Part shown: positions 15,048-21,386 of the stretch, in pieces
Position numbering within the stretch: position 1 is the first letter of the stretch
How the letters are laid out: every line of letters starts with the position of its first letter
Notes under the pieces: generated by a model
The model's input: the letters and a program-made list of their open reading frames with translations, nothing else
Database searches by the model: none
Told to the model about the DNA's origin: nothing
Assembly (NCBI RefSeq): GCF_900105625.1
Contig: NZ_FNSD01000001.1
Span: forward strand, 3,100,001 to 3,164,000
DNA from: Terriglobus roseus
GTDB lineage: Bacteria > Acidobacteriota > Terriglobia > Terriglobales > Acidobacteriaceae
DNA: 64,000 nucleotides
Direction of reading: 5' to 3'
Translations under genes and position numbers: made by a program

Positions 15048-15614
15048 TCAGCGGTTGAAGACGATCTGTTTCACGTCCTGCACGAAGATGGTGAAGGGGC
15101 CCAGGTCGCTCTGGCCGGTGTAGGCGTAGTTTGAGGCGATGTCGCCGGTCACCACGCGGCCGTCCGTCAGGGTGAGCTTCAGGCCAATGGTGTGCGCGTT
15201 GCCATCCACCGTGAGGAAGTCGAGCTGGTGGATTTTCTCAAAGGCGATGGTCTGGCCGCTGGTGAGCTGGATGGTGTCCTCGGTCATGTTGTGCTTGAAG
15301 CTCTTCAGCGAGAGCTGTGTGGTGTCGCCCGCGCGCGATCGCAGCGTCACCGAGCCCTGGTGCGCGGCATCGGCCGTGGTGGTTACGGGCGCGGGCGGCG
15401 ACAGGGGATTGGTCGCCGTGGTGGCAACCGGCGCATCCGGTGCGGGACGCGAATCGCCCGCGACGATGGGCGCACGGTTCGCCGGATCCGAAGACTCGGG
15501 TGCGCCGTGATGGATGGCCAGCCAGAATCCACTGGCCGCCGTCAGTACCGCTGCCAGACCGGTCAGGATGCCGGGAATCGTTGTCCAGAAACTCTGCTTG
15601 TCCACTTCCGCCAC
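15048..15614 (-). CDS. membrane-anchored protein of unknown function
   Basis: 188 residues with one N-terminal membrane helix (about residues 10-35, IPGILTGLAAVLTAASGFW), a Pro/Ala/Thr-rich linker, and a C-terminal beta-rich domain of about 90 residues (VTLRSRAGDTTQLSLKSF to QDVKQIVFNR) that looks like a small beta-barrel or sandwich. No family is recognised. The start is GTG 15614, preceded by GAGGTG at suitable spacing. The gene is on its own; the accessory island begins just upstream of it. Confidence 0.6.
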   Translation of the reverse strand: MAEVDKQSFWTTIPGILTGLAAVLTAASGFWLAIHHGAPESSDPANRAPIVAGDSRPAPDAPVATTATNPLSPPAPVTTTADAAHQGSVTLRSRAGDTTQLSLKSFKHNMTEDTIQLTSGQTIAFEKIHQLDFLTVDGNAHTIGLKLTLTDGRVVTGDIASNYAYTGQSDLGPFTIFVQDVKQIVFNR

Positions 15615-15831
15615 GCCGCACCTCGGGAGAAGAGTAACTGAGGGCGGAGGAAAGTCCAGCGGGAATTGCTGCGTTCCTGCATAACTCCTTCCCATCTACG
15701 GGAACCGCGAGTCACCAATCCCATCCGCAGCGAATGTGGAGAAGAAAAGTCCGCCATCAGCATCGCGCACGTTCTTGAATTTTCTTGAAATCTGCCTGTC
15801 ATTGTCGGAAGCTGGGCTAGGGGGCAGGGAG

Positions 15832-16143
15832 ATGGCCGCAGGAACAGGATTAGCTTTTGAAACGGAATGGACCGCAGTGGCTCAGGAATACGCGGCTTCA
15901 CGTGGGTATCGTTTCTCCGACGAATGCCTAAGTGACCTTCGGGGATTCTTGGCTGGAGGGTTAGCGAACCTCGGCCACCGATCGAGCGAGATCGAAATCC
16001 GTAGTTACAACTCGTCAGTTGTTCAATTGGTGCAAGCCATGATCGACGAGTCTGCCGAAGTGGCCGACGGTGAAACGATTTTGCATGAGTGGACGCTACA
16101 GGCAGCCAGGGTGAAGTTCTGCCCACTCTTTCCTTTCTGTTAA
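15832..16143 (+). CDS. small soluble protein of unknown function, first of a pair
   Basis: 103 residues, mixed helical, with FETEWTAVAQEYAASRGY and a Cys-containing C-terminus (KFCPLFPFC). No domain is recognised. The ATG at 15832 has GGGGGCAGGGAG upstream; an earlier in-frame GTG at 15736 is less likely. The stop is 21 bases before the next gene, a small membrane protein, so the two probably form a bicistron. The base composition is visibly more A+T-rich than the core genes, suggesting acquisition. Confidence 0.55.
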   Translation: MAAGTGLAFETEWTAVAQEYAASRGYRFSDECLSDLRGFLAGGLANLGHRSSEIEIRSYNSSVVQLVQAMIDESAEVADGETILHEWTLQAARVKFCPLFPFC

Positions 16144-16164
16144 CGGTTCGCGTAAGGGGGCTTT

Positions 16165-16509
16165 ATGGCGATGGAAGAACACGAAAAAAAGGCATTCGAC
16201 TTTGCCGCCGATTTGACGAAGCAACTGATCACCTTAGCCACTTCTATCGTGACCTTTTCTCTTGCTTTCAGCGACCACTTTCCCAAGCAAAGCAGACTTG
16301 CACGCGATGCATGGTTCTTCTATCTGATCTCTATCCTTTTTGGGCTATGGACACTCATGGCACTCACCGGGACCCTGGCGCCAACGGGAGGTGCGGCGAC
16401 GGACTTCACCCTCAAGTGGAACGTTCGACTTCCATCCCTCCTTCAAATCCTCTCCTTCGGAATTGCTGTATTACTGACCATCTCGTTCGTCGGTTTTTGG
16501 TGGCACTAA
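16165..16509 (+). CDS. small multi-pass membrane protein, second of a pair
   Basis: 114 residues with an amphipathic start (MAMEEHEKKAFDFAADL) and three hydrophobic helices: LITLATSIVTFSLAF, AWFFYLISILFGLWTLMAL and LQILSFGIAVLLTISFVGFWW. AAGGGGG lies upstream of the ATG. Its role is unknown. Paired with an upstream soluble protein and lying in a compositionally distinct island next to a LOTUS-domain operon, it could be a membrane effector of an accessory system, but nothing in the sequence proves that. Confidence 0.6.
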   Translation: MAMEEHEKKAFDFAADLTKQLITLATSIVTFSLAFSDHFPKQSRLARDAWFFYLISILFGLWTLMALTGTLAPTGGAATDFTLKWNVRLPSLLQILSFGIAVLLTISFVGFWWH

Positions 16510-16829
16510 GACAAGATTGGATCGGGTCTCGCGTTATTCCGGTGCCAGCCAGCAGATTCTTATGGATATGGTTCGCGCCTTCGCGCGAATGCTCACCCTT
16601 CGACTGGCTCAGGGCAGGCTTCATGACGATTGAGCCGTCAGGAATGGGGCACCCATTGTGGTGGTGGGTTCAGAGTTGGGGACGCTGAGGAATCGCGATT
16701 CCAGACAGGAGAGGATCTGGGTGCCCCGTCCATGGCAGAGCCATTTGCGGGATCGGTGAATTGCGGGCTTCTTGTATAGACCACCCGCCCATGCGCATCA
16801 CTCGGAAGGGGTGATCTAGAGCGAACCGC
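16510..16829. repeat. gene-free spacer with inverted repeats
   Basis: No supportable ORF. It contains a 10-base inverted pair (GGGGCACCCA at 16644-16653 and TGGGTGCCCC at 16717-16726) enclosing about 60 bases, and a perfect 14-base palindrome GGAATCGCGATTCC at 16689-16702. The block looks like a miniature intergenic repeat element or a folded RNA between a plus-strand and a minus-strand operon. Confidence 0.5.
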
Positions 16830-17945
16830 CTAAACGGCATGCGCCGTTGCCAATGTCATGCCTAGAAAATCGTAAATCGTTGCGATCACTTTAGGGTTCA
16901 AGAAAAACTCTGGGCCCTCGTTGTGAGCTTTCCAGAGGAAAAACTTGTCGCTCTCTTGAGTGGAGAGGAATTTCTCTGCGTTTTGCGTCAGGAGTTCATC
17001 CGCTCTGCGCAGGTTCTGCCTGCGAGCTTTCACGGTCAACAGCACCTCTTCGCGAGAGCAATGATTGTATTGTCCAATTTTCGAATGGGAAATCATTGGG
17101 CGGAGCATAAGGCGCATTAGCACTTCATCCTCCGCTACGCTGTCGCTAGCCGTGTTTTCGAATTCCTCAACAAGCAACTCGATCGCAGTTCTTATCTCCG
17201 AGACTAAGTCGGTGCCGGTCGTATTGCATTCGTAGACTCGGCCTTCCACCAGATCGCTCGGCATTAGACCAGCATTCAGGTGTGGGTTACCTGTGACAAT
17301 CACAATGCCTCCGTGGAGGTTCGTCTCGTCGAAGATTCTTTGCCGGGTATCGCGAAAGCTTGAAGCATTCAGGAATTTAATATCAGCCCCTAAGACTCTT
17401 CCCATGGCATACACGTGTTGAGCGATGGGAAAGCCGCCAACCGTAGGGCTTCCCGTTACAACGATGCGCGGTTGAGCGGGCCGTAGAAGCTTTGGCTGTT
17501 GGAGTATGGCCTTCTGGCCTCGAAGTGACGTCCACCGTTCACTGAGCGCGATTAGCCAGTCGGATGCTTCCTCGAGGGTCATCTGGCGCAGTCCAGCAAT
17601 GGAAGCCGCCGCGGAAGGGCTCCTGCGACTGGCAGGAAGAGGTTGATCTAGGTCGATTCGGTTAACTACAGGTGTGCCGTCATCTGCCTCTGAAAGTGCA
17701 AGAATATGCCACGTGACGCACTCTCCGTCAGAGTATCGATAGACGCGCGCCCATCCTGTCAGAGACTTTAATATGTTGGGAAGATTGTCCTCGATGAGGC
17801 ATGCCGCCGAGCATGAAGCGATATCGACAGCCATGGTGATACCAGACCGGAACTCGAACCTATGTCCAACCACCTGATCGAGACGCAACGCATCGGAGGC
17901 ATCTAAGGCCCTCGCTGCGCACAACGCTCGTAGGTTGAAGTCCAT
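16830..17945 (-). CDS. unrecognised 371-residue protein encoded with a LOTUS-domain protein
   Basis: No family is recognised. What is visible: an N-terminal region with Cys residues (about 1-100); a central alpha/beta segment (about 158-260) with strands PRIVVTGSP, ADIKFLNASSF and GGIVIVTGNPHLN arranged like a nucleotide-binding or Rossmann-like core, but without a Walker A Lys; and a helical C-terminal part (about 265-371) with an HTH-like stretch HSKIGQYNHCSREEVLL. It lies 54 bases downstream of the LOTUS gene on the same strand and is more A+T-rich than core genes. The two are probably cotranscribed and work together. Confidence 0.7.
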   Translation of the reverse strand: MDFNLRALCAARALDASDALRLDQVVGHRFEFRSGITMAVDIASCSAACLIEDNLPNILKSLTGWARVYRYSDGECVTWHILALSEADDGTPVVNRIDLDQPLPASRRSPSAAASIAGLRQMTLEEASDWLIALSERWTSLRGQKAILQQPKLLRPAQPRIVVTGSPTVGGFPIAQHVYAMGRVLGADIKFLNASSFRDTRQRIFDETNLHGGIVIVTGNPHLNAGLMPSDLVEGRVYECNTTGTDLVSEIRTAIELLVEEFENTASDSVAEDEVLMRLMLRPMISHSKIGQYNHCSREEVLLTVKARRQNLRRADELLTQNAEKFLSTQESDKFFLWKAHNEGPEFFLNPKVIATIYDFLGMTLATAHAV

Positions 17946-17999
17946 GACCGCTCCTATCGCACGAAAAGACGCTGCTTTTCATGTCGCTCCTCAATCTGA

Positions 18000-18932
18000 T
18001 CAAGATGACTTCTTCGCTATGGCAATTAGTCCGCGGAGCGCAATTAGGCTTTCGACCAATTGATCGATTAGTGGCGGGAGGCGATCGAGTACGACAGGAT
18101 TAGAAACATCGATACTGACATCCAAATTGTCTTGGATGCCTCGCTCTAAGTGATCGGAGGGTCTCTCTATGGTGGTCGCAGCAGTGGACTCGGACCGTCC
18201 GCGGAAAGGCTCCGCTAGACTTCTGGGTCTAACTTTGTTGGCGACAGACCATGCTTCGATTTCAGAAAGAATCTGCTGGACATGATAGCGGCGCCATGAA
18301 CGTAGTAGATCTGGAGTTTTTCTTAAACTGTATTCGAAGCGGAATGGGTTCGAATCCTCATCGAGGAGCTTATTGAGTCGGTCCTGCGCTTCGAAAGGTT
18401 GAAGGGCGGCAAATGATCGCATCCAATCGATGAGTCTGGGCTTTGCAGAAGGAACGGGAATTGTTTGCGTTCCAAATGCAAGAGCAGTGGCCGCCGGTCG
18501 GAATGCCACATCTTTATTGATGTCGTAAAGCCAGCCGCTGGTCGCTGAATTAAAAGCCCGCCAAAGGTCTGGTCGCACTCGCACGGCCAGATTCTTGGCC
18601 GTAATCGAAGAAGCTAGCGACTCGGGCTCCTTGGACTGTTCAAGCGGGATCTCAACTAGACTCAACTGTTGAACATTGGGCGGTGAAGCTGGGAGGCTAA
18701 CCTCCAGATCACCACCAGGGTGATCGGCAACACGCACGAAGCCTGCGGTCTGGGCTGCCCTCAAGAACTCGCCGAAGCGACTAAAGCCAAGTGTCCGTTC
18801 GGTCACGCCGCCGCCAATTGCCTGCAGAAACTTAGGCTTTAGGAGCGCACCGATGCAAGGCTTGCCTGACAGCTCAAACTGCCTGACGCAAGACGCGAGA
18901 ATTGAAAAGGGTTGAGTAAGACTTGTCGACAT
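18000..18932 (-). CDS. LOTUS/OST-HTH domain protein
   Basis: 310 residues. Residues about 10-82 read as an OST-HTH/LOTUS winged-helix domain: helix with ILASCVRQFEL, LLKPKFLQAIGG, the hallmark LGFSRFGEFLRAA, then the wing GFVRVAD and LEVSLP. LOTUS domains bind RNA (including G-rich and G4 structures) or partner proteins, and in bacteria they are commonly fused to NYN/PIN-type nucleases; no nuclease domain is seen here. The rest (about 110-310) is helical and unrecognised. The ATG at 18932 has TTGAGGA 8-9 bases upstream; TTG 18947 and ATG 18941 are alternatives. A hairpin at 18959-18991 lies in its leader. Confidence 0.72.
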   Translation of the reverse strand: MSTSLTQPFSILASCVRQFELSGKPCIGALLKPKFLQAIGGGVTERTLGFSRFGEFLRAAQTAGFVRVADHPGGDLEVSLPASPPNVQQLSLVEIPLEQSKEPESLASSITAKNLAVRVRPDLWRAFNSATSGWLYDINKDVAFRPAATALAFGTQTIPVPSAKPRLIDWMRSFAALQPFEAQDRLNKLLDEDSNPFRFEYSLRKTPDLLRSWRRYHVQQILSEIEAWSVANKVRPRSLAEPFRGRSESTAATTIERPSDHLERGIQDNLDVSIDVSNPVVLDRLPPLIDQLVESLIALRGLIAIAKKSS

Positions 18933-18958
18933 ATCGAGCATCCTCAAAGAAGGAGATC

Positions 18959-18991
18959 AGTAGGGCCCTTTCAAACGTCTAGAGCCCTACT
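18959..18991 (-). promoter_or_regulatory. perfect 8-bp inverted repeat in the leader of the LOTUS operon
   Basis: AGTAGGGC at 18959-18966 and GCCCTACT at 18984-18991 are exact inverted copies around a 17-base spacer. It lies 27-59 bases upstream of the LOTUS start and just downstream of a possible promoter. It could be an operator for the operon's own HTH protein or a 5' RNA hairpin bound by the LOTUS domain. Confidence 0.55.
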
Positions 18992-19000
18992 GTCCAAAAT

Positions 19001-19030
19001 TCTTTATTGAATGCAGGCAAAGTCGATCAA
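19001..19030 (-). promoter_or_regulatory. possible sigma-70-type promoter for the LOTUS operon
   Basis: On the minus strand, TTGATC (19025-19030) is followed after 18 bases by TAAAGA (19001-19006). This would place the transcription start near 18994, right at the edge of the inverted repeat. The rest of the spacer to 19264 shows no gene; it is A+T-rich and probably holds only regulatory or inert DNA. Confidence 0.35.
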
Positions 19031-19264
19031 CTATAGAGTTCTCGGTTACCCGGCTCCTGCAGCATGAGAATCCCACTTTGCGTAAATTCTCTGCCTATCA
19101 GGCCCTATAGCGTCGCACCGAGTCGAAGTAGTCCAGATGCTTACTCTTGAAGCATCGTGCACGAAAGTTGCCTAGGTCTTGTTCGGCTATCTAGACACGA
19201 CGATCACGGCGTACAGCATGCTTAGTCTAGCAGAACAACGGTGTTCGTCAACAGAAAGTTGCAA

Positions 19265-21250
<1,986 letters not shown>

Positions 21251-21386
21251 GTTGGGAGTGTAGACGCACGCGGCGGTCTTGAGTTTCGCTTTGAGGGACC
21301 GAAGATGTGCGGGCTCCCATCTCTGCAACGCGAGAGGTGATGCGGCTGCTTCCTGTTACGGGGTGTTACAGAAGACTGACAGAGCA

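Follow-up and report, generated by a model that had tools for sequence, protein, structure and literature searches.

A two-gene cassette with a LOTUS-like protein in a defence hotspot behind glmS of Terriglobus roseus

What is a pair of foreign-looking genes doing behind glmS in Terriglobus roseus, and what does its location say about the function of the two proteins of 310 and 371 amino acids that it encodes? We addressed this question in a 64,000-nucleotide stretch of the chromosome, referred to here as the window, by comparing its borders and cargo with those of congeners and by searching both proteins against profile, structure and genome collections.

Borders and composition of the gene pair

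The two-gene layout described in the first-pass annotation of this DNA is borne out, with both reading frames intact on the minus strand and a gap of 54 nt between them (Table 1), and Shine-Dalgarno-like GAGG and AGGAG motifs can be seen by eye ahead of the ATGs of the two genes. The first of these starts 332 nt behind a gene that we take from its sequence to be glmS. Both genes look acquired, with foreign base composition and codon make-up: GC at third codon positions amounts to 0.575 and 0.514 for the pair, compared with 0.849 for glmS and 0.801 for the flank gene that comes next, and overall GC is 0.525-0.543 in the 1-kb windows starting at 15501-18501 versus 0.577-0.651 in all others of the 64-kb stretch. 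The lower GC of what had been called an A+T-rich island at about 15.8-19.3 kb is real; its unity did not survive comparison with genome G289, which resolves it into two separate inserts, one at ~16791-19264 bearing the pair and a second at ~15647-16568. The latter contains open reading frames of 103 (15832-16143) and 114 (16165-16509) amino acids, the longer of which resembles by eye a small membrane-like protein.

Table 1. Features of the locus (window positions unless residues are given)
Feature	Position	Strand	Remarks
glmS (presumed)	19265-21328	minus	its 3' end bounds the cargo on the right
Promoter-like match	19251-19224	minus	directly behind glmS; 9 of 12, at chance level
Inverted repeat	18958-18966 / 18984-18992		CAGTAGGGC-N17-GCCCTACTG; 9 bp, perfect, loop 17, 26 nt upstream of the 310-aa protein gene
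310-aa protein gene (P0002)	18932-18000	minus	ORF; LOTUS/OST-HTH-like N terminus, UPF0158-like domain, unassigned helical C-terminal tail
LOTUS/OST-HTH-like region	residues ~6-69 of the 310-aa protein		GFSRF motif at 49-53
UPF0158-like domain	residues ~159-239 of the 310-aa protein		profile match
371-aa partner gene (P0001)	17945-16830	minus	ORF; orphan
Flank shared with G289	16569-16790		left border of the cargo; 74% over 222 columns
Second A+T-rich insert	15647-16568	plus	missing in G289; separate from the pair
Flank gene P0006	15048-15695	minus	orthologous stretch after cargo in G289 (92%), G180 and G095 (74%)

On the left side, the 222-column flank (read from 16790 to 16569) resumes in G289 3 nt past the stop of that genome's cargo gene, and in G289, G180 and G095 the flank further out (15646-15048) likewise comes after the cargo. 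Next to this shared left flank stands, in G289 and G180, a gene for an NTPase-like protein of 794 or 796 amino acids and, in G095, a third set of cargo. With one flank in four genomes and three kinds of cargo beside it, the pair is one of these cargo kinds. Short REP-like pieces of the window's non-coding flank (16560-16800) turn up again four times elsewhere in the genome, with 78-91% identity over 34-74 bases.

A defence hotspot behind glmS

We found glmS in 18 of the 19 genus genomes, the one studied here among them, and could fetch the DNA behind it from 16 of the 18 others, one of the remainder having no match and one a distant partial copy only. Three of the 16 (G248, G128 and G148) share 86-89% identical DNA at this place, and the other 13 bear cargo, with a GC content of 0.457-0.558 in the first 2 kb. 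The cargo differs in most of these 13 loci and its sharing between genomes is limited: the NTPase-like proteins of G289 and G180 are 70% identical, a BrnT-type stretch is common to G289 and G263, and 202 nt are common to G095 and G031.

To characterize this cargo we scanned 20 open reading frames with PADLOC, selected by us among the longer frames without mutual overlap in the 13 loci, and obtained matches of at least 60 bits to models of known or candidate anti-phage genes for 10 of the 20 and for 8 of the 13 loci, the methyltransferase and AAA matches being generic. The eight comprise PDC-S28 (792 bits, G166), RT-Protease_XI (512, G283), AriAB of PARIS (430, G031), MTase_II and DpdB (272 and 73, G194), MTase_II and REase_II (204 and 209, G277), NsnB (194, G207), PDC-S58 and ApeA (93 and 65, G263) and AriA (87, G256). 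The cargo of G289 and G180 gave weak matches only (22 and 25 bits), and the frames scanned from G240, G219 and G095 gave none. As controls we picked ten longer open reading frames 5.5-10 kb behind glmS in ten loci, nine of them cargo loci; none reached 60 bits (0/10), and the three matches seen (53, 50 and 19 bits) are aminotransferase-like or methyltransferase-like by family name. The difference between 8 of 13 cargo loci and 0 of 10 controls has a one-sided Fisher p of 0.0026 at a 60-bit line that was chosen after the scores had been seen; at E<=0.001 the counts are 10 of 13 and 3 of 10. The site behind glmS is a defence hotspot, in which defence-rich cargo is exchanged beside a fixed flank and in which the pair sits. 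This feature was missed in the first-pass annotation, and our literature search by title found no paper on a defence hotspot at glmS.

In Pseudomonas, core defence hotspots flanked by conserved genes are well established as places that yield new systems, and the sections of the study drawn on here describe cDHS1 and cDHS2 of Pseudomonas aeruginosa in the same terms, with fixed core genes next to a changing cargo rich in defence genes (PMC10250203). Judged against those sections, the glmS site lies in another phylum-level lineage, has a different anchor gene and holds cargo of one or few genes. Insertion just behind glmS also recalls attTn7, for which this DNA is the classical site according to the part of the source consulted (PMC2918618). 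Unlike attTn7 insertions, the window's cargo encodes no transposase, no transposase-like match being found by Pfam in its two proteins, and in G289 (L102:1282-1517) and G263 (L104, ~1335-1505) the intact glmS is followed by a second, partial copy of its 3' end. No such leftover 3' end was found in the window's own cargo. In G289 and G263 a BrnT-type gene separates the intact from the partial end and the next cargo gene comes after both, which looks as if this cargo had brought along its own glmS tail.

Several further peculiarities were noted around glmS. The GlmS proteins of G031, G277 and G256 (L115, L116 and L117; window 19424-19447) carry in-frame insertions at one C-terminal place, with net sizes from coordinates of about 55, 21 and 81 amino acids, and two of the three contain strings resembling translated REP repeats. 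Near glmS in three genomes (L104, L107 and L114) we recognized by eye open reading frames resembling REP-associated (Y1) transposases. The 794- and 796-residue proteins (L102:1562-3946 and L108:692-3082) have weak PDC-M28C matches and, in one case only, an AAA_16 match below the cut-off, and are an unnamed defence candidate at the glmS site.

Domains of the two proteins

The LOTUS-like N terminus proposed for the 310-residue protein is supported, though weakly. An in-house OST-HTH profile of 18 independently found members, from which rows found via the protein itself were excluded, scores it at 13.2 bits (best of 500 shuffles 3.9), and hhalign gives an OST-HTH probability of 67 (best of 40 shuffles 0.6), while the Pfam OST-HTH model (PF12872) does not match it even when the domain is cut out. 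A Ghxph motif, named for OST-HTH and placed between helices 2 and 3 in the portion of the family survey used here (PMC2848206), is present as GFSRF. The single-sequence structural model, too poor at a mean pLDDT of 36, has a helix-rich N terminus followed by two strands. As had been noted from the sequence, no NYN/PIN nuclease accompanies this region: a Pfam search found neither that nor any other domain, and no nuclease is recognisable. This sets the protein apart from the bacterial LK-nuclease (DUF88/NYN)-OST-HTH proteins, with which it shares the OST-HTH-like domain and the motif. All 18 OST-HTH open reading frames that we read by eye from 119 genomes of the phylum carry the nuclease, and the OST-HTH-like domain of the 310-residue protein, compared with such proteins, stands at the N terminus; bacterial OST-HTH domains are almost all nuclease-linked, as stated in the consulted part of the survey (PMC2848206).

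A second domain, missed in the first-pass annotation, resembles UPF0158. An eight-row UPF0158 profile, from which the row found via the 310-residue protein was excluded, scores it at 26.5 bits (best of 500 shuffles 3.4), the hhalign probability is 88.8 (best of 40 shuffles 1.7), and the two conserved Trp of the UPF0158 alignment are kept. The Pfam UPF0158 model (PF03682) matches neither the whole protein nor the cut-out domain. A search of 396 phylum genomes at E<=0.01 returned the protein itself and eight weak matches: two nuclease-OST-HTH proteins (over residues 5-121), one UPF0158 protein (over 141-238, a stretch where Pfam identifies it as PF03682) and five that we judged to be chance. All nine UPF0158 open reading frames examined by eye from 149 genomes are free of OST-HTH, unlike the 310-residue protein, and our literature search found no paper naming OST-HTH and UPF0158 together, nor a described function for UPF0158; among solved structures none is related to it at E<=1. 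Overall, the protein is UPF0158-like and, more weakly, LOTUS-like, short of confirmed membership in either family.

The partner was described as unrecognised, and in the searches made the 371-residue protein is indeed without a detectable relative. The Rossmann-like core and possible second HTH also ascribed to it are not established: the strings cited for the former exist and an alternating strand/helix pattern is seen at 160-265, in a low-confidence single-sequence model with a mean pLDDT of only 45, and no Pfam match attends the latter. A Rossmann or P-loop assignment is not supported; a Foldseek search at E<=0.001 returned nothing, a result without weight given so poor a model.

Neither protein matches Pfam, NCBIfam, PADLOC or PHROGs at E<=1, and protein pieces run against Pfam at E<=10 gave weak single matches with E of about 0.1. 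A search of the PDB by sequence gave nothing below E 0.2, tblastn of plasmids and phages found no relatives of the pair, and peptide-pattern scans of viral and genome contigs, which detect close relatives only, found none. In 398 family genomes the 371-residue protein matched its own copy only, and the 310-residue protein its own copy and a stretch in G031 (E 4.4e-4) that has two internal stops and lies within another gene's frame. The 396 phylum genomes gave 37 matches to the 371-residue protein at E<=0.1, own included, the best other (0.0017) having an internal stop; we read 15 of 19 other loci, five of which resemble MurA by eye, and judged the set to be chance. No full-length relative of either gene, and no second instance of the pair, was found among the 398 family and 396 phylum genomes, so that this set offers no second genome in which the adjacency of the two genes could be compared.

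Readings of the pair

We regard the pair as a compact, horizontally acquired cassette, most likely a two-gene anti-phage (or anti-mobile-element) module, a reading that we hold with moderate confidence. It rests on the exchange of cargo at one site, the richness of this cargo in PADLOC matches, the foreign codons and the LOTUS- and UPF0158-like similarity, and also on the precedent of core defence hotspots that yield new systems in Pseudomonas, as given in the consulted sections (PMC10250203). The defence function itself is suggested by location. Of the regulatory, toxin-antitoxin or defence roles first considered, it is the defence role that gains, from the defence-like genes behind glmS in 8 of 13 cargo-bearing congeners. 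More tentatively, the pair could be a novel anti-phage system in which the nuclease-free LOTUS- and UPF0158-like protein acts as an RNA sensor of infection and the orphan partner as effector. In the mechanism proposed for the module, the 310-residue protein would bind an RNA that infection produces or changes; through its UPF0158-like domain and the helical C-terminal part it would then release or recruit the partner, which would carry out the block. RNA binding is suggested by analogy with predictions or reports for other LOTUS/OST-HTH domains, and the division into sensor and actor is our guess. An OST-HTH domain also occurs in a proposed prokaryotic conflict system, as effector modules in one class, TERNS3, where it is fused to S1 OB folds in the part of that work consulted (PMC8195603); no TERNS core is recognised here.

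Several observations weigh against an anti-phage module. PADLOC is silent on the pair itself, matching it to no known defence system, five of the 13 cargo loci have no strong defence match, the LOTUS match is weak and under the Pfam cut-off, and neither protein shows a recognisable catalytic motif. Defence systems that succeed tend to recur, whereas this pair was not found in the other genomes searched. The same lack of relatives, together with the capacity of hotspots to house genes without a defence match, speaks for cargo with no present defence role, either a regulatory or RNA-metabolism pair or the decaying remnant of a larger element; we think this unlikely, as both frames are intact with ribosome-binding-like sites and most cargo at the glmS site resembles defence genes.

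Upstream of the pair lies a perfect inverted repeat, for which chance predicts 0.03 occurrences in the 333 bp upstream and which may be an operator. The first-pass annotation had reported it as 8 bp at the predicted transcription start; the repeat stands, at 9 bp, and the start position does not, the only promoter-like match upstream being the one listed in Table 1 and such matches being at chance level (2 found, against a mean of 1.5 in shuffles). An operator of this kind would suit a toxin-antitoxin or addiction pair, with one protein toxic and the other neutralising it, as would the closeness of the two genes on one strand and the BrnT toxin-type gene that occupies this site in G263 and, judged by eye, G289. 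At 310 and 371 amino acids, however, the proteins are large for a usual type II pair and no toxin or antitoxin model of the family libraries matches either, which makes this reading rather improbable. The repeat could also serve autoregulation by a pair of DNA-binding transcription regulators, LOTUS-like domains having a winged helix-turn-helix fold according to the family survey; the same survey, in the part used here, predicts that OST-HTH binds RNA (PMC2848206), and several kinds of feature were looked for, of which the repeat is one prone to arise by chance, so that we give DNA regulation little credence. That the partner is a degenerate sigma-54 (NtrC) AAA+ ATPase working with the LOTUS protein, an idea formed by eye from the resemblance of VVTGSPTVGGFPIAQHVYAM and GGIVIVTG to Walker A and B surroundings, is very improbable, since a profile of 13 such domains from the same genome scores the protein no better than shuffles and hhalign gives it a probability of 1.3 where shuffles reach 2.4.

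If the reading as an anti-phage system with an RNA sensor and an effector is true, LOTUS domains of bacteria would act in immunity with no RNase attached to them, and UPF0158 would obtain its first function. As the pair joins LOTUS-like and UPF0158-like domains at a defence site, one phage assay could test both families, and the hotspot beside glmS, defence-like in 8 of its 13 cargo loci, is a place to seek further systems in the genus.
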